Positions 7,070 through 19,087 of a stretch of 64,000 bases of DNA are shown here, in pieces. The number at the start of each line of letters is the position of its first letter. Within the stretch, counting starts at the first letter, position 1. Both the position numbers and the translations under genes were made by a program. The notes beneath the pieces were generated by a model that saw only the letters and a program-made list of their open reading frames with translations, did not search any database and was not told where the DNA came from. This stretch comes from Rubrivivax gelatinosus IL144 (GTDB taxonomy: Bacteria; Pseudomonadota; Gammaproteobacteria; Burkholderiales; Burkholderiaceae_C): NCBI RefSeq assembly GCF_000284255.1, contig NC_017075.1:620001-684000 (forward strand). The letters run 5' to 3'.

Positions 7070-7235
7070 CGGGCGCGCCTCCAGGACCCTCGATGCTGGG
7101 CCTGCCAGATGGCAGTGCCGTGAACGCAGCATGACAGGGGATGCCCCGATGCGGTGCGGCGTTTTGACTTCGGTCAGGAGCCGGCGACGCCGCCCGCGCC
7201 ACGCGCGCACGCGCTGTGAGACCATCGCCGGCCTC

Positions 7236-8927
7236 ATGTTCAAGCCCTGGCTCGCCCACTATCCCGACGGCATCCCGTCGGAGATCGACGTCGACTGCCA
7301 TGCGTCGCTGGTCGACGCGATGGCCGACGCCTGCTCCCGTTTCGCCGACCTGCCCGCGCTGTGGTCGATGGGGCGGTCGATGACCTACCGCCAGCTCGAC
7401 GAGGCGAGCCTCGCGTTCGCCGCCTGGCTGCAGCACGACGCCGGCCTGGCGCGCGGCGAACGTGTCGCGCTGATGATGCCCAACCTGATGCAGTACCCGG
7501 TGGCGCTGCTGGGCGTGCTGCGTGCGGGGCTGGTGGTCGTCAACGTCAACCCGCTGTACACGCCGCGCGAGCTGGAGCACCAGCTGCAGGACTCGGGCGC
7601 CGCGGCCATCGTCGTGCTGGAGAACTTCGCCGCCAAGCTGGAGCAGGTGGTCGCGGCGACGCGGCTGCGCGCCATCGTCACCACCGGCGTCGGCGACCTG
7701 CTCGGCTTCAAGGGCCCTCTCGTCAACGCCGTCGTGCGCCACGTGAAGAAGCTGGTGCCGGCCTGGCATCTGCCGGGCGCGGTGAGCTTCAACCAGGCGC
7801 TGGCCGCCGGCCGCCGCCGGCCGCTGTCGCCGGTGACGCTGGGCCACGACGACCTCGCCTTCCTGCAGTACACCGGCGGCACCACCGGCGTCGCCAAGGG
7901 CGCGATGCTGACCCAGGGCAACGTGCTGGCCAACGTGCTGCAGGTCTCGGCCTGGCTCGCGCGCGACCTGCAGGACGGCCGCGAGACCGTCGTGCTGCCG
8001 CTGCCGATGTACCACGTGTTCGCGCTGATGGCGTCCTTCGTCTTCCTGCGCAAGGGCGCGAAGCTGGTGCTGATCGCCAACCCGCGCGACATGGGCGACA
8101 TGCTGAAGACGCTGCAGGCGGTGCCGTTCTCCGGCATCGTCGGCGTCAACACGCTGTACCGCGCGCTGCTCGACGCACCGGGCTTCGCCAAGGTCGACCT
8201 GAGCGGGCTGAAGCTCGCGGTGGCCGGCGGCATGGCGGTGCAGCACATCGTCGCCCAGCGCTGGCGCGAGCGCGCCAAGGTGCCGCTGGTCGAAGGCTAC
8301 GGCCTGACCGAGGCCTCGCCGGTGGCGATCGCCAACCCGGTCGACGTGCACGAGTGGAGCGGCACGATCGGCGTGCCGATCCCCAGCACCGAGGTCGTCA
8401 TCGCCGACGACGAAGGCCGCGTGCAGCCGACCGGCAGCGTCGGCGAGATCCGCTTGCGCGGCCCGCAGATCATGCGCGGCTACTGGCAGCGCCCCGAGGA
8501 GACGGCCGAGGTGCTGACCGCCGACGGCTGGCTGCGCACCGGCGACATGGGCACGATGGATGAGGAAGGCAACATCCGCATCACCGACCGCAAGAAGGAC
8601 ATGATCGTCGTCTCGGGCTTCAAGGTCTTCCCGAACGAGGTCGAGGACGTGCTGGCGATGCACCCCGGGGTGCAGGAAGCCGGCGCGGTGGGCGTGCCCG
8701 ACGACCGTTCGGGCGAGGCCGTCAAGGTGGTCGTCGTGCGTCACGACCCCGAGCTGACCGAACGCGAGCTGCTGGCGCACTGCCGCCAGCACCTGACCGG
8801 CTACAAGATGCCGCGCCACATCGAGTTCCGCGACCAGCCGCTGCCGCGCACCAACATCGGCAAGATCCTGCGCCGCGAACTGCGCGACACGCCCAAGCCG
8901 GCGCCGAAGGCCGAAGAGTCCGCCTGA
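7236..8927 (+). CDS. fadD: Long-chain fatty-acid-CoA ligase
   Basis: 563-residue adenylate-forming enzyme that activates fatty acids to acyl-CoA through an acyl-AMP. The P-loop YTGGTTGVAKGA lies near residue 212, GYGLTEASP near 355, TGD near 435, and the hinge/C-terminal DRKKDMIVVSG follows, with the conserved lysine in NIGKILRREL near the end. Length matches FadD (about 560). Start ATG 7236 gives MFKPWLAHYPDGIP, typical of betaproteobacterial FadD. The stop is 1 bp from the stop of the convergent ExoD-family gene. Exact chain-length preference is unknown. Confidence 0.93.
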   Translation: MFKPWLAHYPDGIPSEIDVDCHASLVDAMADACSRFADLPALWSMGRSMTYRQLDEASLAFAAWLQHDAGLARGERVALMMPNLMQYPVALLGVLRAGLVVVNVNPLYTPRELEHQLQDSGAAAIVVLENFAAKLEQVVAATRLRAIVTTGVGDLLGFKGPLVNAVVRHVKKLVPAWHLPGAVSFNQALAAGRRRPLSPVTLGHDDLAFLQYTGGTTGVAKGAMLTQGNVLANVLQVSAWLARDLQDGRETVVLPLPMYHVFALMASFVFLRKGAKLVLIANPRDMGDMLKTLQAVPFSGIVGVNTLYRALLDAPGFAKVDLSGLKLAVAGGMAVQHIVAQRWRERAKVPLVEGYGLTEASPVAIANPVDVHEWSGTIGVPIPSTEVVIADDEGRVQPTGSVGEIRLRGPQIMRGYWQRPEETAEVLTADGWLRTGDMGTMDEEGNIRITDRKKDMIVVSGFKVFPNEVEDVLAMHPGVQEAGAVGVPDDRSGEAVKVVVVRHDPELTERELLAHCRQHLTGYKMPRHIEFRDQPLPRTNIGKILRRELRDTPKPAPKAEESA

Positions 8928-8928
8928 G

Positions 8929-9570
8929 TCAGCCGCCCAGGCCCAGCACCTGGGTCGCGAAGTAGACGGCGCCCTTGACCATCGCCCAGACGACGCCCGA
9001 GACGACGACGGCGGCGACGACCGAGACCGCGGCGCCGGCGATCACCCAGACGCCGTCGCGCTCGAGCACGCCGAGCGCGAACAGGCTGACCGCCAGCGCC
9101 GGCAGCATGTTGCCCAGCGGCACCGGCAGCAGCACGATCACCGACAGCAGCAGGCACAGCAGGCCGATCAGGTACTCCATCGGCGGCGCCGCCAGCGCGC
9201 TCCAGCGCGGCTTGAGCAGGCGCTCGGCGCGCGCCAGCCACGGCGCGACACGCACGATCAGCTGGGCGAAGTCGGCGCGCGCCATCGAGCGCGAGGCGAT
9301 GACTTTCGGCAGCCAGGGCTTCAGGCCGAAAGCCAGCTGAGCGGCGAGAAAGACCAGCGGCGCGCCCAGGATCGCCGAGGTGCCCGGCGGCATCGGCAGC
9401 ACGTTCGGGAAAGCGAAGACGAAGAGCAGCGCGGCCAGCGCGCGGTCGCCGAGCGCGGCCAGCAGGTCGCCGACGGCGATGCGCTCGCGCGATTCGTCGT
9501 GGGCGAGCTGCTCCAGCATCGCCGAGAGCGGCAGGCGGTGGGGAGCGTCGTCGGCGTTCGAACGGGGCAT
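8929..9570 (-). CDS. ExoD-family membrane protein
   Basis: 213 residues with the ExoD layout: a soluble N-terminal helix pair (LSAMLEQLAHDESRERIAVG, DLLAALGDRA), then membrane segments including FAFPNVLPMPPGTSAILG, which is the most conserved block of the family, and YLIGLLCLLLSVIVLLPVPL. ExoD affects exopolysaccharide production and alkaline tolerance in rhizobia, but the biochemical role is not known. Start ATG 9570 (MPRSNADDAP) is chosen because the upstream extension runs into the hemP promoter region. Confidence 0.8.
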   Translation of the reverse strand: MPRSNADDAPHRLPLSAMLEQLAHDESRERIAVGDLLAALGDRALAALLFVFAFPNVLPMPPGTSAILGAPLVFLAAQLAFGLKPWLPKVIASRSMARADFAQLIVRVAPWLARAERLLKPRWSALAAPPMEYLIGLLCLLLSVIVLLPVPLGNMLPALAVSLFALGVLERDGVWVIAGAAVSVVAAVVVSGVVWAMVKGAVYFATQVLGLGG

Positions 9571-9704: not shown

Positions 9705-9723
9705 AATGAGAATGGTTCGCATT
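9705..9723 (+). promoter_or_regulatory. Fur box upstream of hemP
   Basis: AATGAGAATGGTTCGCATT is a 19-bp imperfect palindrome close to the Fur consensus, 34 bp before the hemP start and divergent from the ExoD gene. It probably represses the heme-uptake genes when iron is plentiful. Confidence 0.75.
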
Positions 9724-9757
9724 AGAGTGACATTCCTTCGCAACCGATGACACGACG

Positions 9758-9961
9758 ATGCTGCAACCCGATCCCCGCGAGCCGCAGCGCCCCGGCGCCG
9801 AGACACCGGCCCGGCGCGCGACGCCGGCCGCCGCGCCGCGCCGCCCGCGCTGGCGCAGCGCCGACCTTTTCGGCGCCGCCGAGGAGATCGAGATCGAACA
9901 CGGCGACGCGGTCTACCGCATGCGCATCACCTCGATGGGCAAGCTGATCCTGACCAAGTAG
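9758..9961 (+). CDS. hemP: Hemin uptake protein HemP
   Basis: 67-residue protein whose C-terminal half carries the HemP signature: a serine-leader (RSADLFG), then IEHGDAVYRMRITSMGKLILTK, in which YRLR.T..GKLILTK is the family core. HemP homologues (HmuP) act with Fur as activators of heme-receptor genes in Burkholderia and Bradyrhizobium (family knowledge). It is the first gene after the Fur box at 9705 and leads the heme locus. Start ATG 9758. Confidence 0.9.
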   Translation: MLQPDPREPQRPGAETPARRATPAAAPRRPRWRSADLFGAAEEIEIEHGDAVYRMRITSMGKLILTK

Positions 9962-10035
9962 TCCCCGTTCCCTCGTCCACAGCACCAGCCAGCCTCGTCC
10001 GCCAGCACGTGCGCCCCCTCCCGCAGGAGCGTTCC

Positions 10036-11100
10036 GTGCACCACCCGACCGCCGTCTCCCGTCTTCTCCAGGGCCTGAAGCTGCCGCCGCCCGGCGTGCG
10101 TGCGCCGGCGCTGCGCCAGTGGCTGCGTGTCTTCGGCGACGCGCCGGCGGCCGCCGCCGCGCTGCAGCGCAGCGACGCCGCCGCGGTGCTGGGCGTGCGC
10201 GAAGCCGAACTCGTCGCCGCGCACGCCGGCTGCTTCGACCGCGCCGAGTCACCGCTGGCGGCGCGCCGGTTGCGGCCGCGCCGGCGCCAGATCGCCGAGG
10301 CCTTGCAGCGCTTCGGCGCCACGCGTTCGGTGGCCGGCCACCGCGCCTGCCGCGTCGAGCGCCTGGGCCCGGCCCGGGCGCCCGAACACTGGGCGCACGC
10401 GTTCGCGCTCGAACAGCGCACGCCCGAGGGCGCGCTGGCGCGCAGCCTGCAGTTCTTCGACGCCGCCGGCGACGCGCTCGCCGAGCTGACGCCGCTGGAC
10501 GCCGCCGGCGTCGCCGCCTGGTTCGACCTCGTCGAGAGCTACGCCTGCTTCGAGCCGGCGCCGCGCCCGCTGGCCGCGCGCCGCGTGCGCGCCGCCCGTG
10601 CGCCGCTGGAGAGCGCCGACGCCGCGGCGCTGCGCCGCGCCTGGGCGACGATGCGCGGCGCCGACGGCTTCGACACGCTGCTCGCCCGTTTCGCGCTCGC
10701 GCCGGGCGCCGCCTGCCGGCTCGCCGGCCCCGACTTCGCGCGCCGTGTCGCGCCGACCAGCGCCCATGAACTGCTGGCCGCCGCGGCGCAGCAGGGCCTG
10801 CCGCTGTCGGTGCAGGTGCCGGGCGCCGGCGACTGCGGCGGCGACTGGCGCCAGGTGCGCCAGGCCCGCGGCTGGACCCAGGCCGACGGCGGCGGCGTGC
10901 GCCTGCATCTGCGCGAAGACGCGGTCGCCGAAGCCTGGCTGCTCGGCTGCCCGTCGCCCGGCGGCTGGCGCCAGACGCTGCTGCTGCTCGACGCCGCCGG
11001 CGCGCCGATCGCGCGCCTCGGCGAAGAAGCCACGGCCACGCGCGAGCGCTGCGGTTGGCGCCGCCTCGTCGCCCAGCTCGACGCGGAGGTGGACGCATGA
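10036..11100 (+). CDS. ChuS/HemS/HmuS-like heme-handling protein
   Basis: 354 residues, the two-repeat ChuS/HemS size. The block VLGVREAELVAAHAG matches the family's LGVSEAELLA motif and SLQFFDAAGDAL matches its SLQFFD..G.A motif. Family members bind cytosolic heme and some degrade it oxidatively. In the latter motif the usual AVHK heme-ligand histidine seems to be replaced (DALAEL), so heme binding may differ. GTG 10036 is preferred because AGGAG lies 6 nt upstream; an in-frame GTG at 10009 is the alternative. It follows hemP and overlaps the next small gene by ATGA. Confidence 0.72.
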   Translation: MHHPTAVSRLLQGLKLPPPGVRAPALRQWLRVFGDAPAAAAALQRSDAAAVLGVREAELVAAHAGCFDRAESPLAARRLRPRRRQIAEALQRFGATRSVAGHRACRVERLGPARAPEHWAHAFALEQRTPEGALARSLQFFDAAGDALAELTPLDAAGVAAWFDLVESYACFEPAPRPLAARRVRAARAPLESADAAALRRAWATMRGADGFDTLLARFALAPGAACRLAGPDFARRVAPTSAHELLAAAAQQGLPLSVQVPGAGDCGGDWRQVRQARGWTQADGGGVRLHLREDAVAEAWLLGCPSPGGWRQTLLLLDAAGAPIARLGEEATATRERCGWRRLVAQLDAEVDA

Positions 11101-11426
11101 GCGACGCCAAGCCCAAGGCCGCCGTCGTGCTGGCGCTGGCCCGCGCCGAAGCCGGCGCCGTCTTCCACGAACTGCAGCGCCGCGCCGACGCCGCCGAAGC
11201 CGACGCGATGCGGCTGCGTGCGCTGCTGATCCGCCGCGACACCGAGATCGCCCAGCTGCGCGACGAGCTGCGCCTGCTGCACGTCGAGACGCCCGATCTG
11301 CGCACCCGGCTCGAACTGGTGCGCGAGAACCGCCGCCAGGCCGAGCAGCTGGTCGCGCTGCGCCGCGCGCTGGGCGGCGGCGCCTGGCGCGCCGAGGCCC
11401 GCGTGCGGCCGGCCTTCGGCACCTGA
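11097..11426 (+). CDS. Small coiled-coil protein in heme operon
   Basis: 109 residues, mostly heptad-rich helix (about residues 15-95: AEAGAVFHELQRRADAAEAD, then RDTEIAQLRDELRLLHVE). It has no signal peptide or membrane segment. I do not recognise the family. It overlaps the ChuS-like gene by ATGA and is followed 88 bp later by the heme receptor, so it is very likely translated with the heme-handling gene and may be a partner or scaffold, which is inference. Confidence 0.65.
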   Translation: MSDAKPKAAVVLALARAEAGAVFHELQRRADAAEADAMRLRALLIRRDTEIAQLRDELRLLHVETPDLRTRLELVRENRRQAEQLVALRRALGGGAWRAEARVRPAFGT

Positions 11427-11514
11427 ACCGCTTTCCCGCTTCTCCCACCGACGCCAGCCACCGCGCCCTCCGGGGTGCGGGCGCCAGCCCTGCCATGACA
11501 ACAGAAAGACTCGA

Positions 11515-13779
11515 ATGTCACAGCCACAGGGCCCGCGCCGCGGGCAACGCCTCGTCCTGCATCCCCTGACCGCGGCCGTCGCCGCGCTCGCCGCCGGCCT
11601 GGTGCAGGCGCAGACCACCGGCGCCCCGACCGTCGTCGCCCAGGCGCCGCTGCCCAAGGTCGTCGTCTCGGCGACGCGCGTCGAAGCCAATGAAGACGAG
11701 GTCGCGGCCACGGTCAGCGCGGTCACCGCCGAGGAGATCGAGCAGCGCGGCGCGGCCGATGCCCAGGACCTCGTGCGCTACGAAGCCGGCATCTCGGTGC
11801 GGGCGCTGCCCAACCGCAGTTCGGCGGCCTTCTACAGCACCGGCCGCGGCGGCAACGAAGGCATCAACATCCGCGGCCTGGAAGGCAACCAGGTCATGCT
11901 GCAGGTCGACGGCGTGCGCCTGCCGATGCTCTACGCCAGCGGCCCGGTCTTCGCCGGCCGCGCCGACTACATCGACGTCGAGGCCTTCAAGCGCGTGGAA
12001 CTGCTGCGCGGGCCTTCGTCCACCTCCTACGGCAGCGACGGCCTGGCCGGCGCCGTCAGCTTCGTCACCAAGGACCCGTCGGACCTGCTGCGCGAGGGCG
12101 AGAAGACCGGCGGCGCCGTCAAGCTCGGCTACCGCAGCATCGACCGCGCCTGGAGCCTCGTGCCCTCGGTCGCGCTGCGCACCGACACCGGCTGGGAAGC
12201 GATGCTGCTGGCCAGCCTGCGCCGCGGCCACGAGGTCGACAACAAGGGCGACAACGATGCCCGCGACATGACGCGCACGACGCCCAATCCGCAGGACACC
12301 GACGCCGACTACGTGCTGGCCAAGCTGCTCTACCGCTTCAACGACCGCCACCGCGTCAAGTTCAGCGCCGAACGTGTCGACCGCCAGTACGACACCCAGG
12401 TCTACACGCTGTTCGGCGACCCGATGTACCTGACGACCACCGACGTCGCCTCGAGCGAACACATCAAGCGCTCGCTGCTGAAGGCCGACTACCAGTACAC
12501 CGACCCGCGCAACCCGTGGTTCCAGCGTGTCGACGCCAGCCTGTACTGGCAGGACTCGGAGAACCGCCAGAAGGGCTGGGAGACGCGCAGCAACACCAGC
12601 GCCTGGAACTCGCGTTCGCGCGACAACCTGTACGCCGAGAAGGCGCTGGGCAGCAGCCTGCAGTTCGAGTCCAACTTCGGCACCCAGGTCACGCAGCGCC
12701 TGATCTGGGGTCTGGACGCCTCGACGACCGAGGTCAGCTCGCTGAAGGACGGCGCCAACTATCTCAACGGCGTGCTCGTGACCACCGGCTCCAGCGCCTT
12801 CGTCGTCAACAAGAGCTTCCCCGACACCGACTACCGGCTGCTCGGCGCCTTCGTGCAGGACGAGATCAGCTTCGGCCGTTGGTCGCTGATCCCCGGCCTG
12901 CGCTACGACCGGTTCGAGCTCGATCCGGACAAGAACGACCCGCTGTACGCGCGCAACAACACGCAGCCGCCGACCGAACTGAGCGACGGCGAGCTGTCGC
13001 CCAAGCTGGGCTTCGTCTTCAACGTCGCGCCCAACCTGCGCTTCGTCGCCCAGTACGCCCACGGCTTTCGCGCGCCGACGCCGTCGCAGGTCAACGGCGG
13101 CGTCAGCAACCTGCTCGCGTCGCAGCCCTACATCTCGCTGGGCAACCCCGACCTGAAGCCCGAGACCAGCGACAGCGTCGAGCTCGGCCTGCGCGGCAGC
13201 CAGGGCGGCCTGCGCTGGAGCGCGACCGTCTTCAAGGCGCGCTACGACGACTTCATCGCGTCCAACGTCAAGATCGGCGGCAGCGGCACGGCTTCCGATC
13301 CGACGATCTTCAGTTCGATCAACCTGAACGACGTCGAGATCCAGGGCTGGGAAGCGACGCTGGACTGGAACTTCCTGCCGAGCTGGACGCTGACCGGCCG
13401 CTACGCGCACGCCAGCGGCGACAGCAAGCAGGCCGGCGTCAAGACGCCGCTGGAGACCATCGACCCCGACAAGCTCGTCGTCGGGCTGCGCAAGCAGGCC
13501 GAGACCTGGGGCGGCGAGCTGATGCTCACCGCGGTCGAACGCAAGTCGCGTGTCGACGAGAGCCAGTACTACGTGCCCGGCGGCTTCGTCGTCGCCGACC
13601 TGTCGATGTGGTTCCAGCTCGGCCGCGACGCGCAGCTCAACCTGGCGCTGAACAACCTGTTCGACAAGAAGTTCGTGCAGTGGGCCGACGCCCGCGGCCT
13701 GGCGGCGACCACGGCGATCGCCGACGCCTTCAGCCAGCCCGGCCGCGGCATCAGCGCCAGCCTGCGCTACCGCTTCTGA
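11515..13779 (+). CDS. TonB-dependent heme/hemoglobin receptor (HmuR-like)
   Basis: Outer-membrane receptor, 754 residues. Signal peptide ends near GLVQAQ, then a TonB-box/plug region (KVVVSATRVEANEDEVAATV, later GGNEGINIRGLEGNQVMLQV), and a barrel ending LRYRF. The heme-receptor FRAP and NP-L boxes are present (YAHGFRAPTPSQ and SLGNPDLKPETS). In HemR-type receptors a histidine usually lies between the boxes; none is seen here between FRAP and NPDL. The stop codon overlaps the CobN-like gene (TGATG), so the receptor and that protein are translationally coupled, as in hmuR-hmuS of Bacteroidetes. Confidence 0.88.
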   Translation: MSQPQGPRRGQRLVLHPLTAAVAALAAGLVQAQTTGAPTVVAQAPLPKVVVSATRVEANEDEVAATVSAVTAEEIEQRGAADAQDLVRYEAGISVRALPNRSSAAFYSTGRGGNEGINIRGLEGNQVMLQVDGVRLPMLYASGPVFAGRADYIDVEAFKRVELLRGPSSTSYGSDGLAGAVSFVTKDPSDLLREGEKTGGAVKLGYRSIDRAWSLVPSVALRTDTGWEAMLLASLRRGHEVDNKGDNDARDMTRTTPNPQDTDADYVLAKLLYRFNDRHRVKFSAERVDRQYDTQVYTLFGDPMYLTTTDVASSEHIKRSLLKADYQYTDPRNPWFQRVDASLYWQDSENRQKGWETRSNTSAWNSRSRDNLYAEKALGSSLQFESNFGTQVTQRLIWGLDASTTEVSSLKDGANYLNGVLVTTGSSAFVVNKSFPDTDYRLLGAFVQDEISFGRWSLIPGLRYDRFELDPDKNDPLYARNNTQPPTELSDGELSPKLGFVFNVAPNLRFVAQYAHGFRAPTPSQVNGGVSNLLASQPYISLGNPDLKPETSDSVELGLRGSQGGLRWSATVFKARYDDFIASNVKIGGSGTASDPTIFSSINLNDVEIQGWEATLDWNFLPSWTLTGRYAHASGDSKQAGVKTPLETIDPDKLVVGLRKQAETWGGELMLTAVERKSRVDESQYYVPGGFVVADLSMWFQLGRDAQLNLALNNLFDKKFVQWADARGLAATTAIADAFSQPGRGISASLRYRF

Positions 13780-16700
13780 TGCGCCCCGCCGCCAGCCTGC
13801 CGGGCGAGGCCCGGCACTGCCAGCTCGCCGCCGCCCGCCGCCGCCTCGTGGCGGCGGCCGTCGCGCTCGCCGCGCTGCTGATGCTGCTCGCGCTGCCGGC
13901 GCAAGCCGCACGCGTGCTCGTCGTCACCACCTCGCCGGTGCCGCCGGCCAAGCTCGCGGCGCTGGCACGTGTGGGCGGCCCGCTGGGGCTGGACGTTCAG
14001 GCCCGCTACGTCGAGAAGCTCGGCACCATCGACGCCACGCTCTGGGACGGCGCCGATCTCGTGCTGCTGGACGCGCCGCGCGCCCACATCGAAGCCTGGA
14101 TGCGCGAGAAGCTGGCGCCCGCGCTGCCGGCGCTGGAGCGCCGCCGGCATGTCTGGCTGTCCACCGCCGAGGCGCGCCCGCACGAGGTGCCGGCCGACCT
14201 CGCCCAACGCCTGCACGCCTATTACGTCAACGGCGCCGGGCCCAACCTGCGCCACTTCGTCCAGACGCTGGACGACTGGCTGGACGGCCGGCCCTGGGGC
14301 GGCCACCCCGACCCGGTGGTCTTCCCGGCCACCGGGATCTACCACCCGAAATACCCCGGCCTGGTCACCGCGGCGACGCGCGACTACCTGGCTTGGAAGG
14401 GCGTGGCCGCCGACGGCAAACGAGCGCCGGTCGTCGGCATCGTCTTCCACCCGCAGAGCGTCGCCGCCGAAGAGACCGAGCTGCTGGACGCGCTGATCGC
14501 CCGCCTGGAAGCGCAGGGCGCGGTGCCGCTGGCCTTCTACACGCCGGTGCTCGACGCCGACGCGGTGCGCCGCGTCGCGCTCGTCGACGGCCGGCCGGTG
14601 GTCGACGTGCTGATCAACACCCAGATCACGCTGAGCCCCGACGCCCGCCGCGCCGAGTTCGAGGCCCTGGGCGTGCCGGTCATCCAGGCCATGGCCTATC
14701 GCCGCGGCGACACCGCCGCCTGGCGTGCCGACCCGCAGGGCGTGCGCATCGACGACGTGCCGTTCTACCTGTCGCAGGCCGAGACCGCCGGCATCACCGA
14801 CATCCTGATCGCCTCGGCCACCGGCGGCGCCGACGAACGTGTGGAGCCGATCGCGCCGCAGGTCCACGCCGTCGTCGCCAAGGCGATGAAACTCGTCGCG
14901 CTGCAGCGTAAGCCAGCGGCCGACAAACACGTCGCGCTGTTCTTCTGGAACTACCCGCCGGGCGAGAAGAACCTGTCGGCCTCGTTCATGAACTTGCCGC
15001 GCAGCCTGGTGGCGACGCTTGCGGCGCTGCGCCAGGCCGGCTACACGACCGAGACCCAGGACGAGGCGGTGCTGACGGCCTCGCTGCAGCGATTGCTGGA
15101 GCCCGCCTACCGCCCGGCCGCCGACCGCGAGGTGCTGGAGCGGCTGCTGCGCGACGGCCTGGCCGACTGGCTGCCGGTCGCGCGCTACCGCGCTTGGCTG
15201 GCGGGCCTGCCGCCGGAGGTCGGCGCGCGGCTGGACGAACGCTGGGGCGCGCCCGAACGTTCGACCTGGATCGTGCGCCGCGGCGGCCAGGACGGGTTCG
15301 TCGTGCCGCGGCTGCGCCTGGGCGGCATCAGCCTGCTGCCGCAGCCGCCACGCGGCGAACGCGGCGAAGACCGCGAGAAGGCCATCTACCACTCGACCAG
15401 CGCCGTGCCTTCGCACCACTACTTCGCCGTCTACCTCTGGGCGCGCGAGCAGTTCGCCGCCGACGCGCTGGTGCACTTCGGCACCCACGGCACGCAGGAA
15501 TGGCTGCCGGGCAAGGAGCGCGGGCTCTCGGTCTTCGACGACGCGCTGCTGGCCGTCGGCGACGTGCCGGTGGTCTACCCGTACATCGTCGACAACATCG
15601 GCGAGGCGCTGCAGACCAAACGCCGCGGCCGTGCGGTCGTCGTCTCGCACCAGACGCCGGCGCTGGCGCCGGCCGGGCTGCACGACGCGCTGACCGCGCT
15701 GCACGACGCGCTGCACCAGTGGCTGGCGCAAGGCGAGGGCCAGGTGCGCGACGCGCTGCGGCGGCAGATCACCGACGGCGTCAAGCGCGAGCGCATCGCC
15801 GCCGACATGGGCTGGAGCGAGGCGCGTGTCGAGGCCGACTTCCCGGCCTTCATCAGCGCGCTGCACGACCATCTGCACGAGCTCGCGCTGACCGTGCAGC
15901 CGGTCGGCCTGCACAGCTTCGGCCGCGCGCCCGAGGAACGCTGGCGCCTGGCGACGGTGATGGAGATGCTGGGCCGCGAGACCATCGTCGCGCTGGCCGC
16001 ACCGGGCGAAGAGGCCGACGAGGTGCTGGTCGGCGACTGGAAGAAGCTCACCGAGACCGCCACCTACCGCCGCCTGCACGAGTACATCGTCGAAGGCGCC
16101 GACACCGCGGCGCTGCCGACGCCGGCGCGCGAAGCGGTCGAACGTGGCCGGCGCTGGTACGCCGACCTGGGCGCCGAAGGCGAGCTCGCCGGGCTGCTGG
16201 ACGCGCTGGCCGGGCGTTACCGGCCGACGAGCTACGGCGGCGACCCGATCAAGAACCCCGACTCGCTGCCGACCGGGCGCAATCTCTACGGCTTCGACCC
16301 CTCGCGGGTGCCGACCAAGGCCGCCTGGGAAGCCGGCAAGCAGGCGCTGGAGCAGCTCGCCGCCGCGCACCGCGCCAAGACCGGCCGAGCGCCGGCCAAG
16401 CTGGCGTTCACGCTGTGGTCGGTGGAGACGATGCGCCACCAGGGCCTGCTCGAAGCGCAGGCGCTGTGGGCGCTGGGCGTCGAGCCGGTCTGGGACGCCG
16501 GCGGGCGCGTCGCCGACGTCAAGCTGGTGCCGCGCGCTGCGCTGGGCCGGCCGCGCATCGACGTTGTGCTCTCGGCCACCGGGCTGTACCGCGACCACTT
16601 CCCCAACGTGATGCGCCAGCTCGCCAAGGCGGCGCGGCTGGCGTCGCAGGCCGACGAAGCCGACAACCCGGTGGCGGCCAACGCGCGCCGCATCGCCGCC

Positions 16701-17783
16701 GGGCTGCGTGAACGCGGCCTGGACGCGGCCGCCGCCGAACGCGCCGGGCAGACGCGCATCTTCTCGTCCGAGTCGGGCCGTTACGGCAGCGGCCTGGACG
16801 ACGCGGCGCTGGCCACCGACACCTGGAAGACCCAGGCCGAAGGCGACCGCAAGCTGGCGACGCTGTACCTGTCGCGCATGCAGTACGCCTACGGCCCCGA
16901 CGAGGCCGAGTGGGGCCAGGCCGGCACCACGGCCAACCTCTACGCCGAGCACCTGAAAGGCACCGAAGGCGCGGTGCTGGCGCGCAGCTCCAACCTCTAC
17001 GGCATGCTGACCACCGACGACCCGTTCCAGTACCTGGGCGGGCTGTCGCTGGCCGTGCGCCACCTCGACGGCAAGGCGCCCGAGCTCTACATCAGCAACC
17101 TGCGCGGGCCGGGCGCGGGGCGGGTCGAAGGTGCCGCCGAGTTCCTGGCCAAGGAGCTGGCGACCCGCAACTTCCACCCCGGCCACATCAGCGGCTTGAT
17201 GGCCGAGGGCTACGCCGGCACGCTGCAGGTGCTCGACGGCATCAACAACTTCGCCGGCTGGCAGAGCGTGGCACGCGAGATCGTGCGCGACGACCAGTGG
17301 CAGGAGTTCATGGACGTCTACGTGCGCGACAAGCATCAGCTCGGCATCCGCCGCTGGTTCGAGAGCCGCAACCCGCACGCGATGGCGCAAGTCATCGAAC
17401 GTTTGCTCGAAGCCGCGCGCCTGGGCCAGTGGAAGGCGGCGCCGGAAAGCGTCGCCGAGCTGAAGGCGCGCTGGCGCGAGCTGGCGCAGCGCCACGACGT
17501 GCGGCCCGACAGCGCCGCGTTCGCCGCCTTCGTCGGCTACGGCCTCGCGCCGCAGCCGGCCGCGCCGGCGCCCGCACCCGCGGCGCCCGCCGACGCGGCC
17601 CCCGTTCCCCCCGAGCCCGCCGCGGCACGGCCCCCGGTCGAGGGCCTGCTGCTCGAACGTGTCGCCCCGCCGCCGGCCGAGGCCTCGCGCGCCGCGCTGG
17701 CGCTGGCCGCCATCGCGCTGGCGCTGGCCGGCGGCGCGCTGCGCGGCCGGCGCTCCCGTTCCTCTCTTTCGTTCGCCACCTGA
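13779..17783 (+). CDS. Membrane-anchored CobN-like chelatase (HmuS-type heme dechelatase candidate)
   Basis: 1334-residue member of the CobN/magnesium-chelatase H-subunit family. The core motif HFGTHGTQEWLPGKE is near residue 567 and the C-terminal NLRGPGAGRVEGAAEFLA and NNFAGWQSVAREIVRDDQW regions are intact. Unlike cytosolic CobN it has an N-terminal signal or anchor (LVAAAVALAALLMLLALPAQ, about residues 23-44), a Pro/Ala-rich linker near 1255-1290, and a final hydrophobic segment with basic tail. It overlaps the heme receptor and precedes ExbB-like and DUF2149 genes, exactly the Bacteroidetes hmuR-S-T/U-V context in which HmuS removes iron from heme anaerobically. No CobS/CobT or cobalamin genes are nearby, which argues against cobaltochelatase. 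The function here is inferred from context. Confidence 0.82.
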   Translation: MRPAASLPGEARHCQLAAARRRLVAAAVALAALLMLLALPAQAARVLVVTTSPVPPAKLAALARVGGPLGLDVQARYVEKLGTIDATLWDGADLVLLDAPRAHIEAWMREKLAPALPALERRRHVWLSTAEARPHEVPADLAQRLHAYYVNGAGPNLRHFVQTLDDWLDGRPWGGHPDPVVFPATGIYHPKYPGLVTAATRDYLAWKGVAADGKRAPVVGIVFHPQSVAAEETELLDALIARLEAQGAVPLAFYTPVLDADAVRRVALVDGRPVVDVLINTQITLSPDARRAEFEALGVPVIQAMAYRRGDTAAWRADPQGVRIDDVPFYLSQAETAGITDILIASATGGADERVEPIAPQVHAVVAKAMKLVALQRKPAADKHVALFFWNYPPGEKNLSASFMNLPRSLVATLAALRQAGYTTETQDEAVLTASLQRLLEPAYRPAADREVLERLLRDGLADWLPVARYRAWLAGLPPEVGARLDERWGAPERSTWIVRRGGQDGFVVPRLRLGGISLLPQPPRGERGEDREKAIYHSTSAVPSHHYFAVYLWAREQFAADALVHFGTHGTQEWLPGKERGLSVFDDALLAVGDVPVVYPYIVDNIGEALQTKRRGRAVVVSHQTPALAPAGLHDALTALHDALHQWLAQGEGQVRDALRRQITDGVKRERIAADMGWSEARVEADFPAFISALHDHLHELALTVQPVGLHSFGRAPEERWRLATVMEMLGRETIVALAAPGEEADEVLVGDWKKLTETATYRRLHEYIVEGADTAALPTPAREAVERGRRWYADLGAEGELAGLLDALAGRYRPTSYGGDPIKNPDSLPTGRNLYGFDPSRVPTKAAWEAGKQALEQLAAAHRAKTGRAPAKLAFTLWSVETMRHQGLLEAQALWALGVEPVWDAGGRVADVKLVPRAALGRPRIDVVLSATGLYRDHFPNVMRQLAKAARLASQADEADNPVAANARRIAAGLRERGLDAAAAERAGQTRIFSSESGRYGSGLDDAALATDTWKTQAEGDRKLATLYLSRMQYAYGPDEAEWGQAGTTANLYAEHLKGTEGAVLARSSNLYGMLTTDDPFQYLGGLSLAVRHLDGKAPELYISNLRGPGAGRVEGAAEFLAKELATRNFHPGHISGLMAEGYAGTLQVLDGINNFAGWQSVAREIVRDDQWQEFMDVYVRDKHQLGIRRWFESRNPHAMAQVIERLLEAARLGQWKAAPESVAELKARWRELAQRHDVRPDSAAFAAFVGYGLAPQPAAPAPAPAAPADAAPVPPEPAAARPPVEGLLLERVAPPPAEASRAALALAAIALALAGGALRGRRSRSSLSFAT

Positions 17784-17799
17784 AGGCAGCCCACACGCC

Positions 17800-18285
17800 A
17801 TGAACCACGCACTCGAATCGACCATGTACGACGTCGCGCAGCTCTTCCTGCTGCCGACGCTGGCGCTGATCGCGCTGCTCTTCCTCTACGCCTTCTGGGC
17901 GCTGGGCGAGTTCCTGACGCTCGCCTGGCAGCGCCGGCGCGGCGGCGGCCGGCCGCTGCTGGCCGCCGACCGCGCCGCCGGCGGCCTGAGCGACGACGCG
18001 CTCGACCTGCACGCGCACCGGATGCTGGAAACGCAGCGCATCGCCAGCCGCGTGACGCCGATGCTGGGGCTGGTCGCGACGATGATCCCGATGGGCCCGG
18101 CGCTGAAGTCGCTGTCCGACGGCAACCTGGCGCAGGTGTCGCAGAACCTGACCGTCGCGTTCTCGGCGGTGATCCTGGCGCTGATCGCCGCGTCGATCAC
18201 CTTCTGGGTCGTCAACGTGCGCCGGCGCTGGCTGGCCGAGGAGCTGGTCGAGATCGCCGCCGCCCGCGGCAAGGCGGCGGCATGA
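17800..18285 (+). CDS. MotA/TolQ/ExbB-like proton-channel protein of hmu-type operon
   Basis: 161 residues. A first membrane segment (LFLLPTLALIALLFLYAFWAL) is followed by a cytoplasmic loop and two further segments (TPMLGLVATMIPMGPALKSL and LTVAFSAVILALIAASITFW), which carry the MotA/TolQ/ExbB signature. It is shorter than ExbB (about 240), matching the HmuU-type small members. Start ATG 17800 lies 16 bp after the CobN-like stop, and the stop overlaps the DUF2149 gene by ATGA. Probably forms a proton-motive-force unit with the DUF2149 protein. Confidence 0.83.
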   Translation: MNHALESTMYDVAQLFLLPTLALIALLFLYAFWALGEFLTLAWQRRRGGGRPLLAADRAAGGLSDDALDLHAHRMLETQRIASRVTPMLGLVATMIPMGPALKSLSDGNLAQVSQNLTVAFSAVILALIAASITFWVVNVRRRWLAEELVEIAAARGKAAA

Positions 18286-18599
18286 AGCTGCTGCACGAAG
18301 CGCAGGACGACGACCCCATCCTATCGGTCGTCAACCTGATCGACATCTTCCTCGTCGTCATCGCCGCGCTGCTGATCACGGTGGCGCAGAACCCGCTGAT
18401 GAACCCGTTCTCCAAGCGCGACGTCACGGTCATCACCGACCCCGGCAAGCCGAGCATGGAGATGGTCGTCAAGAAGGGCGAGAAGATCGAACGCTACAAG
18501 GCCAGCGGCGCCATCGGCAGCGGCGACGGTGAGAAAGCCGGCGTCGCCTACCGCATGAAGGACGGCGCCATCGTCTACGTGCCCGAAGGCGGCTCCTGA
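18282..18599 (+). CDS. DUF2149 family protein (HmuV-type), ExbD-like topology
   Basis: 105 residues with one membrane segment near the N-terminus (NLIDIFLVVIAALLITVA, residues 18-35) and a soluble C-terminal part (KKGEKIERYKASGAIGSGDG). DUF2149 proteins sit next to CobN-like and ExbB-like genes in hmu operons. The aspartate at residue 21 just at the start of the membrane helix resembles the essential aspartate of ExbD/TolR (LIDI), so this could be the ExbD counterpart of the preceding gene. Its last 25 bp overlap the tail of a convergent gene. Confidence 0.82.
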   Translation: MKLLHEAQDDDPILSVVNLIDIFLVVIAALLITVAQNPLMNPFSKRDVTVITDPGKPSMEMVVKKGEKIERYKASGAIGSGDGEKAGVAYRMKDGAIVYVPEGGS

Positions 18600-19087
18600 G
18601 CGGCGCGGCGCCAGACGGCGCCGGCGCCCGAACAGAGCAGCAGCGCCAGCAAGAGCGCGAACACCAGCACCGCGCCGCCGCGCCCGGCCGGCGCGACGCA
18701 GCCGACCAGCTGCACGAGCCAGAAGACGAAGGCCGCGACGTAGGGCAGGAACAGCGTCCAGCGGGCCGCCGTCAGCGCGCCGGGTGCGCGGTGCGCCCGC
18801 ACCATTCGCCAGTGCGGCGCGCCGGCGAAGTGCCGGTCCAGCGCACGCCACCAGGCGATCAGGTTGCGCGAAAGCACGACCTCGATCGTGCCCGCGACGA
18901 CGCTGAGCCCCAGCCCGGTGGTGGCGACCAGCGTCTTCGACGGCGGCACGCCGACGTCGTAATAGACCTTGGCCAGCGCCGCGATCGCGCCCAGGAAAAA
19001 CGGCAGCGCGATGAATCGGATCGAGCTGTGCGCGCGGATGAAGGCCAGCGTCTCGCGCACGGCGTCGTCGGCCGGATCGGGCGGCAT
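18575..19087 (-). CDS. Predicted four-helix membrane protein
   Basis: 170 residues with four hydrophobic segments (FIALPFFLGAIAALAKVYY, TLVATTGLGLSVVAGTIEVV, TLFLPYVAAFVFWLVQLVGC, AVLVFALLLALLLCSGAGAV). The second and third are separated by a basic loop (WWRALDRHFAGAPHWRMVRA). Related proteins are annotated only as hypothetical membrane proteins as far as I know. It is convergent with the heme operon and overlaps it by 25 bp. Start ATG 19087. Confidence 0.6.
   Translation of the reverse strand: MPPDPADDAVRETLAFIRAHSSIRFIALPFFLGAIAALAKVYYDVGVPPSKTLVATTGLGLSVVAGTIEVVLSRNLIAWWRALDRHFAGAPHWRMVRAHRAPGALTAARWTLFLPYVAAFVFWLVQLVGCVAPAGRGGAVLVFALLLALLLCSGAGAVWRRAAQEPPSGT

Follow-up and report, generated by a model that had tools for sequence, protein, structure and literature searches.

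Can a phototrophic proteobacterium free iron from heme with a CobN-like protein? The question is raised by an operon of Rubrivivax gelatinosus IL144 in which a gene for a TonB-dependent heme-type receptor is followed by genes for a CobN-like protein, a MotA/TolQ/ExbB-like protein and a DUF2149 protein. The operon lies in the 64,000-nucleotide stretch analyzed here (the window), which corresponds to bases 620001–684000 of the single 5,043,253-base contig NC_017075.1. A preliminary description of the window had presented the locus as a Bacteroidetes-style hmu operon with the CobN-like protein as HmuS. Gene order, homology of the last two proteins to HmuU and HmuV, and the heme context bear out this comparison, but the CobN-like protein, judged by its clade and its residues, is not HmuS. 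We hold with moderate confidence that the locus is a heme-acquisition operon with a module that removes the metal from heme in the periplasm, in a variant form of the HmuS type; by analogy, its CobN-like protein probably does a job related to that of HmuS and works like HmuS at most.

Heme context and gene order

The receptor scored above the cut-offs of two heme receptor models, TIGR01786 (418.9 bits; cut-off, 323.75) and TIGR01785 (395.5 bits; cut-off, 316.85), and both the FRAP and the NPDL box are present. Because hemP, a HemS/ChuX-type gene and a Fur-like site are found in the same operon, the context is one of heme, and the operon is probably Fur-controlled. The HemS/ChuX-type gene had gone unmentioned in the preliminary description, and its product, judged by family, would be cytoplasmic. 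The hemP gene and the Fur box reported ahead of the receptor were both recovered (Table 1). ORFs and profile matches likewise agreed with the order and overlaps first given for the four main genes: the receptor and CobN-like ORFs overlap by TGATG, the CobN-like and ExbB-like ORFs are 16 bp apart, and the DUF2149 ORF overlaps the ExbB-like ORF by ATGA.

In BLAST comparisons, the ExbB-like ORF matched the ORF at the HmuU position of B. fragilis (31%, E 3e-16), and the DUF2149 ORF matched that at the HmuV position (40%, E 1e-19); by sequence, the two proteins are thus homologs of those that Bacteroides encodes at the HmuU and HmuV positions. The DUF2149 protein has one predicted membrane helix, in which an Asp was invariant in 15 aligned rows, followed by a small beta domain, and is probably an ExbD-like partner of the ExbB-like subunit. 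Its structure model was of low confidence (predicted local distance difference test [pLDDT], 69.7), and neither a fold search (best E, 0.73) nor a PDB profile search returned anything usable. No Rfam family matched the window at gathering thresholds, hence no cobalamin riboswitch, and a scan with a Zur-box consensus gave nothing usable. The earlier statement that cobalamin and bacteriochlorophyll partners are missing nearby holds for the eight ORFs of 9758–19087, the part of the window scanned for them.

The order receptor, CobN-like, ExbB, DUF2149 equals R-S-U-V of the Bacteroidetes hmu operon minus Y and T. With the hmuYRSTUV operons of Bacteroides and Porphyromonas (PMC12583661, PMC10100974 and PMC10434189, the last giving annotations), the window's operon shares a CobN-like protein with a predicted membrane segment at either end, the His538 of HmuS and an iron/heme setting. 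Unlike them, it has no HmuY or HmuT genes between or before the others, adds hemP and the HemS-type gene, and encodes a protein of another clade. Compared by names only, proteobacterial hemPRSTUV/ChuPRSTUV operons have the same hemP, HemS-type gene, heme receptor and Fur-like site, but the window's operon has CobN-like, ExbB and DUF2149 genes in place of HemTUV. Such genes in Proteobacteria are not wholly new: PMC10100974 reports HmuS, HmuU and HmuV relatives there and counts 140 species with the order R-S-U-V, although Bacteroidetes make up about 99% of the genomes in which it found the operon; Pseudomonas PA1922–1925, considered below, is a further case. Among the matches listed in the open literature, judged by titles and the starts of abstracts, no paper dealt with a heme operon of Proteobacteria that includes a CobN-like gene.

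Table 1. Features of the operon, in window coordinates
Feature	Position	Strand	Evidence
Fur-box-like site upstream of hemP	9708..9726	-	13/19 Fur consensus bases; 1/200 mononucleotide shuffles as good
hemP	9758..9961	+	PF10636 61.7 bits, cut-off 25
HemS/ChuX-family heme protein	10009..11100	+	PF05171 79.1 bits, PF06228 48.4 bits
Small ORF, 109 aa	11097..11426	+	ATGA overlap with HemS-type gene
TonB-dependent heme-type outer-membrane receptor (HmuR/HemR type), 754 aa	11515..13779	+	TIGR01786, TIGR01785
CobN-like protein, 1334 aa	13779..17783	+	PF02514 987 bits
MotA/TolQ/ExbB-like (HmuU-like) motor subunit	17800..18285	+	PF01618 29.1 bits, cut-off 22.9, E 9e-7
DUF2149 (HmuV-like) protein	18282..18599	+	PF09919 101 bits, E 5e-29

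A longer frame of the small ORF (11055–11426) matched no Pfam or NCBIfam model. The small ORF resembles part of a DUF2325 protein encoded upstream of the receptor in L078 (L-numbers label the related loci compared with the window operon).

Placement and residues of the CobN-like protein

Three PF02514 proteins are encoded in the genome. Besides that of the window there are, far from it, a CobN in the cob cluster (TIGR02257, 1501 bits; cut-off, 822), which adjoins cobW, cobO and a ChlI-like gene, and a BchH in the photosynthesis cluster, which reaches the TIGR02025 cut-off and adjoins bchL and puhA. The window protein fell below the cut-offs of both models (TIGR02257, 502 versus 822; TIGR02025, 539 versus 829). 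It passed NF004644 (1422.7; cut-off, 1248), whose database name, CobN, is misleading for this protein.

Trees were quick searches. A 66-protein residue alignment kept 16 of 80 Bacteroidota and omitted the fragments L027, L062, L065, L081, L101, L114, L145, L173 and L185; relative to it, six further Bacteroidota were omitted from the first tree. In that tree, the window protein fell inside a starred 5-row clade of heme-receptor loci. In a mixture-model tree of 38 chosen rows, CobN (8 rows) and HmuS (5 rows) each occupied one side of a starred branch, and the window's group (20 rows) one side of a branch with support 93, not starred. The window's group, HmuS and a third group of 3 rows, 28 of the 38 rows in all, stood opposite CobN and BchH (SH-like approximate likelihood ratio test [SH-aLRT], 99). 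The window protein lay outside the HmuS clade, in a separate clade on a long stem. Grouping with true CobN, the outcome against which the preliminary description had staked its reading, was rejected in the approximately unbiased (AU) test (p-AU 0.014, not a strict value, since the groups were named after the first tree had been seen). For a clade of the window's group with HmuS alone (support 65), the AU test neither shows nor rejects it. Other CobN-like proteins (L033–L041, L074 and L076), from genomes of the same class and order as the window's, made up a group of their own with a long branch, an H-x-GRHS motif, Asn-Asp at site 2 (described below) and weak DUF2149 matches.

Membrane segments were predicted by hydropathy at residues 23–41 and 1303–1321 of the window protein. 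The same method placed segments at each end of both Bacteroides HmuS rows inspected, whereas the CobN and BchH encoded elsewhere in the genome showed none. Two members of the same protein family, L187 and L188, exceeded the threshold at the first segment only. The body of the protein is thus predicted to be periplasmic and is probably membrane-tethered. An AlphaFold model of residues 46–1240 (pLDDT, 78; predicted TM-score, 0.57) has a class I chelatase fold. CobN (9uk9, 7c6o) and BchH/ChlH (4zhj) have this fold too, and likewise the second His in the motif HFGTHG or HVGKHG; those proteins, unlike the window protein as predicted, are soluble and insert metal, and the genome encodes one of each separately. 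The best sequence match in PDB was HmuS 9d26 (E 5e-111), followed by ChlH (2e-103) and CobN (9e-103), and the core model and fold search do not separate CobN from HmuS. From the tree, the cut-offs, the predicted topology and the presence of both enzymes elsewhere in the genome, we conclude that the window protein is neither a cobalamin CobN nor BchH. It resembles in this respect BtuS, a third CobN type apart from CobN and ChlH that was proposed for metalloporphyrin salvage (Rodionov 2003, via PMC6460266). BtuS is a loose label, and the BtuS2 of B. fragilis is the HmuS of that species (PMC13227078).

HmuS features, as given in PMC12583661, are Met79, His254, a Met-rich insertion in domain IV, His538 and LSLDHxxEFMGG with His1209 and Glu1212; Met79 and His254 are ligands of the head/neck (structural) heme, and His538 in HFG(T/A)HG is essential for turnover. 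The reaction is reported to turn heme into protoporphyrin IX and Fe(II) and to depend on NADH. His538 is kept in the window protein as His570 in HFGTHG, a His that was invariant in 19 of 19 aligned rows. Site 2 of the window protein reads LTTDDPFQYLGG, with Asp1081 and Gln1084 where HmuS has His1209 and Glu1212. No Met occurs in the 27 residues aligned with the Met-rich insertion, a weak test given that this stretch spans 8 to 158 residues with 0 to 30 Met in 76 Bacteroidota rows. Met79, His254, His538, His1209 and Glu1212 were all present in 76 of 76 Bacteroidota HmuS rows, which had been fetched by HmuS similarity and whose uniformity is therefore partly selected. With its place outside the HmuS clade and every one of these features but His538 missing, the protein does not fit the earlier assignment as HmuS. 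An HmuS-like protein is encoded in another genome of the window's family (L092, 2283–6806, minus strand): it keeps SLDHVYEFMGG and HGR, lacks Met79, and has a 228-residue stretch with only 3 Met at the insertion position. Its neighbors (including 637–2328, minus, and 7166–9424, plus) are ExbB and DUF2149 genes, a membrane-like ORF at the HmuT position and a divergent receptor gene.

In a larger alignment of 125 of 134 proteins (those below 1250 aa left out), the Asp/Gln pair occupied site 2 in 13/13 heme-type and 10/10 CirA-type rows, types that are defined below. Five rows (L031, L064, L069, L070 and L188) had His/Glu without other HmuS features, and the receptors of L064 and L069, the two of them with a scanned receptor, pass no heme cut-off. 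Site-2 residues were therefore rejected as a marker of the metal; their distribution marks the clade.

Relatives of the operon and their receptors

CobN-like proteins that travel with ExbB–DUF2149 pairs and varying receptors form one family, in which the window's subclade is heme-linked. The window protein shows the traits of this family, namely membrane segments at both ends (hydropathy), adjoining ExbB and DUF2149 genes and a tree position apart from CobN and BchH. DUF2149 occurred in 18/274 genomes of the class, 22/300 of the order and 28/200 of the family. Among these 28 genomes, 8 (window included) have a heme-type operon with a CobN-like gene, 8 a CirA-type operon and 1 the HmuS-like gene of L092; the remaining 11 have the ExbB–DUF2149 pair only, within the stretch fetched, some stretches being cut by contig ends and one (L101) having a partial CobN-like match at its end. 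Heme or CirA type was assigned by receptor similarity and clade, with only some receptors scanned.

All 12 heme-type receptors tested, the window's included, passed both heme cut-offs (L091 is a 13th, outside the test). Receptors were scanned at 4 of the 10 CirA-type loci (L077, L080, L085 and L187; L071 is counted as CirA type by tree position), where CirA was the best match but below its cut-off. Fur-like sites at shuffle p <= 0.02 were found at 8/12 heme-type versus 1/9 CirA-type loci, with two more of the latter at 0.03. A ChaN gene was present in 8/14 heme-type relatives versus 0/10 CirA-type loci (Fisher p 0.006, in a test that treats related loci as independent; one heme-type locus, L065, whose contig stops short of a receptor, was classed from its sequence alone). 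The CirA-type loci formed one clade nested among the heme-type loci in the first tree, which implies one or more exchanges of the receptor. The ChaN gene lies between the CobN-like and ExbB genes in L063 (3480–4307, minus) and L083 (3126–3857, minus) and elsewhere after DUF2149; in L066, TonB and hemP genes precede the operon. The heme-type operons L060 (10540–11454) and L061 (12523–13560), which come from two genomes belonging to a single family, contain or adjoin a gene for a ribosomal protein S4 paralog without cysteines and a 90-aa ORF. Paralogs of this kind often respond to zinc starvation, so that the one in L061 is odd beside the Fur-like site there.

Two further settings bear on the substrate. 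Pseudomonas aeruginosa PA1922–PA1925 is described as a zinc-responsive, Zur-linked operon (PMC4542158, PMC9431628). Compared by description rather than by sequence, its receptor, CobN-like, ExbD/proton-channel-labeled and DUF2149 genes stand in the identical order; unlike the window operon, it is zinc-regulated and its receptor is labeled CirA. On a plasmid of Runella slithyformis (L191, 1–12000), receptor, ExbB, DUF2149 and CobN-like genes lie between hypF and hypCDE; this set is possibly a nickel version, with an adjoining gene that is only weakly NicO-like. A cobalamin riboswitch was found at 9/10 scanned pair-only loci versus 0/10 heme-type and 0/10 CirA-type loci. Nine pair-only loci (L094–L098, L100, L102, L104 and L105) combine ExbB and DUF2149 genes, without a CobN-like gene, with a TonB receptor and such a riboswitch.

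Proposed function and alternatives

In the reading that we favor, the receptor would carry heme, either free or taken from a heme protein, through the outer membrane in a TonB-driven step, and the operon's own ExbB/DUF2149 pair, by its homology to HmuU and HmuV, would probably also drive the receptor. The CobN-like protein, tethered to the inner membrane with its body predicted to lie in the periplasm, would receive the heme and most likely remove the iron, with His570 and Asp1081, by analogy with HmuS, facing in the central cleft. The genes and their order, the clade, the residues and the link of the relatives to heme are observations, whereas the location, the substrate, demetallation, the direction of the reaction and any independence from oxygen are inferred. 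Ferrous iron would then enter via FeoB, which is present in the genome (627-residue ORF), and some heme may enter intact, given the HemS-type gene. The preliminary description had placed such a route beside canonical heme oxygenase-type routes; a profile search for the PF01126 heme oxygenase found none in the genome, though the operon does carry the HemS-type gene.

Several observations weigh against this reading. The HemS-type protein implies that intact heme reaches the cytoplasm. Met79 and His254 are both absent from the window protein and from 13/13 heme-type rows, in a head domain that aligns poorly (two alignments place different residues at 254, neither of them His). HmuS His1209, together with Glu1212, is missing, and the genome's metal-inserting CobN carries the identical Asp/Gln pair at site 2, so that metal insertion fits these residues as well as removal. 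The fold search of the modeled core ranked CobN 7c6o slightly above HmuS 9d26, with ChlH near both. A His between the FRAP and NPNL boxes, with a role known from HemR work, is a usual feature of heme receptors; inspection of the box segment showed none between the FRAP and NPDL boxes of the window receptor, and the segment, located in 11 heme-type receptors, lacks it in 10 of them (L067 has one; the pattern did not find the segment in L060 and L068). The clade of CobN-like proteins also holds loci with CirA-like receptors, hence the protein need not be heme-specific. The operon is without ChaN, the genome's sole ChaN being 1.6 Mb away, and DUF2149 occurred in 0/2 other genomes drawn from the genus.

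A possible but rather unlikely alternative is that the CobN-like protein serves the receptor and motor as a heme carrier or gate in the periplasm, binding heme and handing it over with the iron still in place. Intact heme would then enter the cytoplasm, where the HemS-type protein would pass it on for enzymatic degradation or for use in heme proteins. The HemS-type gene itself, the ChaN heme-binding proteins in 8/14 related operons and the missing HmuS-specific ligands and His1209 would fit this account, as would the B. fragilis btuS1 btuS2 double mutant, which is reported to have still dechelated heme (PMC6460266). The genome has two FecCD permeases. The first belongs to a B12 cluster that also contains CobQ, a CobU-like gene and a BtuB-like receptor; the second adjoins the cob cluster and is accompanied by a receptor that misses the heme cut-offs. 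The ATPases of the two systems scored 197 and 203 bits with the heme-importer model (cut-off, 261). There is thus no clear HemTUV importer in the genome, although the second FecCD system may import heme. The lack of a clear HemTUV and of a PF01126 match speaks against a mere carrier, and the invariant His of HFGTHG and the class I chelatase fold model suggest a chelatase-type reaction.

It is unlikely, and somewhat more so, that the protein acts on a different metal complex (a zinc-, cobalt- or other metal-porphyrin, or a metallophore), or that it inserts metal into a porphyrin, with a receptor that is heme-like in fold only. Against this stand hemP, the HemS-type gene, the Fur-like site, the two heme receptor models above cut-off and the confinement of ChaN to heme-receptor loci among the 24 scanned, and for it the CirA-like receptors within the same family, the Runella hyp-cluster locus beside a weakly NicO-like protein, the Zur-linked PA1922–1925 (PMC4542158, PMC9431628), the site-2 Asp/Gln shared with the genome's cobalt-inserting CobN and the receptor without His between its boxes. 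A broader reading, which is tentative and which we consider rather unlikely, is that CobN-like, ExbB and DUF2149 proteins together make up a generic machine for demetallation in the periplasm, with exchange of the outer-membrane receptor deciding which metal is handled (heme iron in the window's operon, zinc in Pseudomonas and perhaps nickel in Runella); the proteobacterial heme form would then use a His/Asp site as a second kind of heme dechelation unlike that of HmuS.

That the protein is HmuS proper, transferred from Bacteroidota, is very improbable: the best PDB sequence match (9d26), the hmu gene order and the retained His538 are outweighed by the separate long-stem clade and by the missing Met79, His254, insertion, His1209 and Glu1212, L092 showing how an HmuS-like protein looks within the same family, so that residues and tree both contradict it. 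A second cobaltochelatase CobN for cobalamin synthesis is the least probable of all, since the NF004644 match is contradicted by the TIGR02257 score, the AU test and the genome's separate CobN with its cob neighbors, and the predicted membrane segments and the lack of a cobalamin riboswitch in the window at the gathering threshold point the same way. BchH was rejected on its TIGR02025 score, the genome's BchH elsewhere having both the score and the bch neighbors.

As a whole, this information bears on how the family is annotated. HmuV (DUF2149) has been suggested as diagnostic of heme transport (PMC10100974); our data speak against this, because B12 operons under riboswitch control, and loci with other receptors, also contain the ExbB–DUF2149 pair, and DUF2149 is therefore not heme-specific. 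According to PMC12583661, reliable annotation is out of reach for the majority of CobN-like sequences from bacteria and archaea that lie apart from the HmuS, CobN and ChlH anchors. The clade described here offers a clear heme context, an active site that differs from that of HmuS in a defined way and a host that is phototrophic and probably tractable, which together make possible a direct test of chelatase-type iron removal at a His/Asp site.

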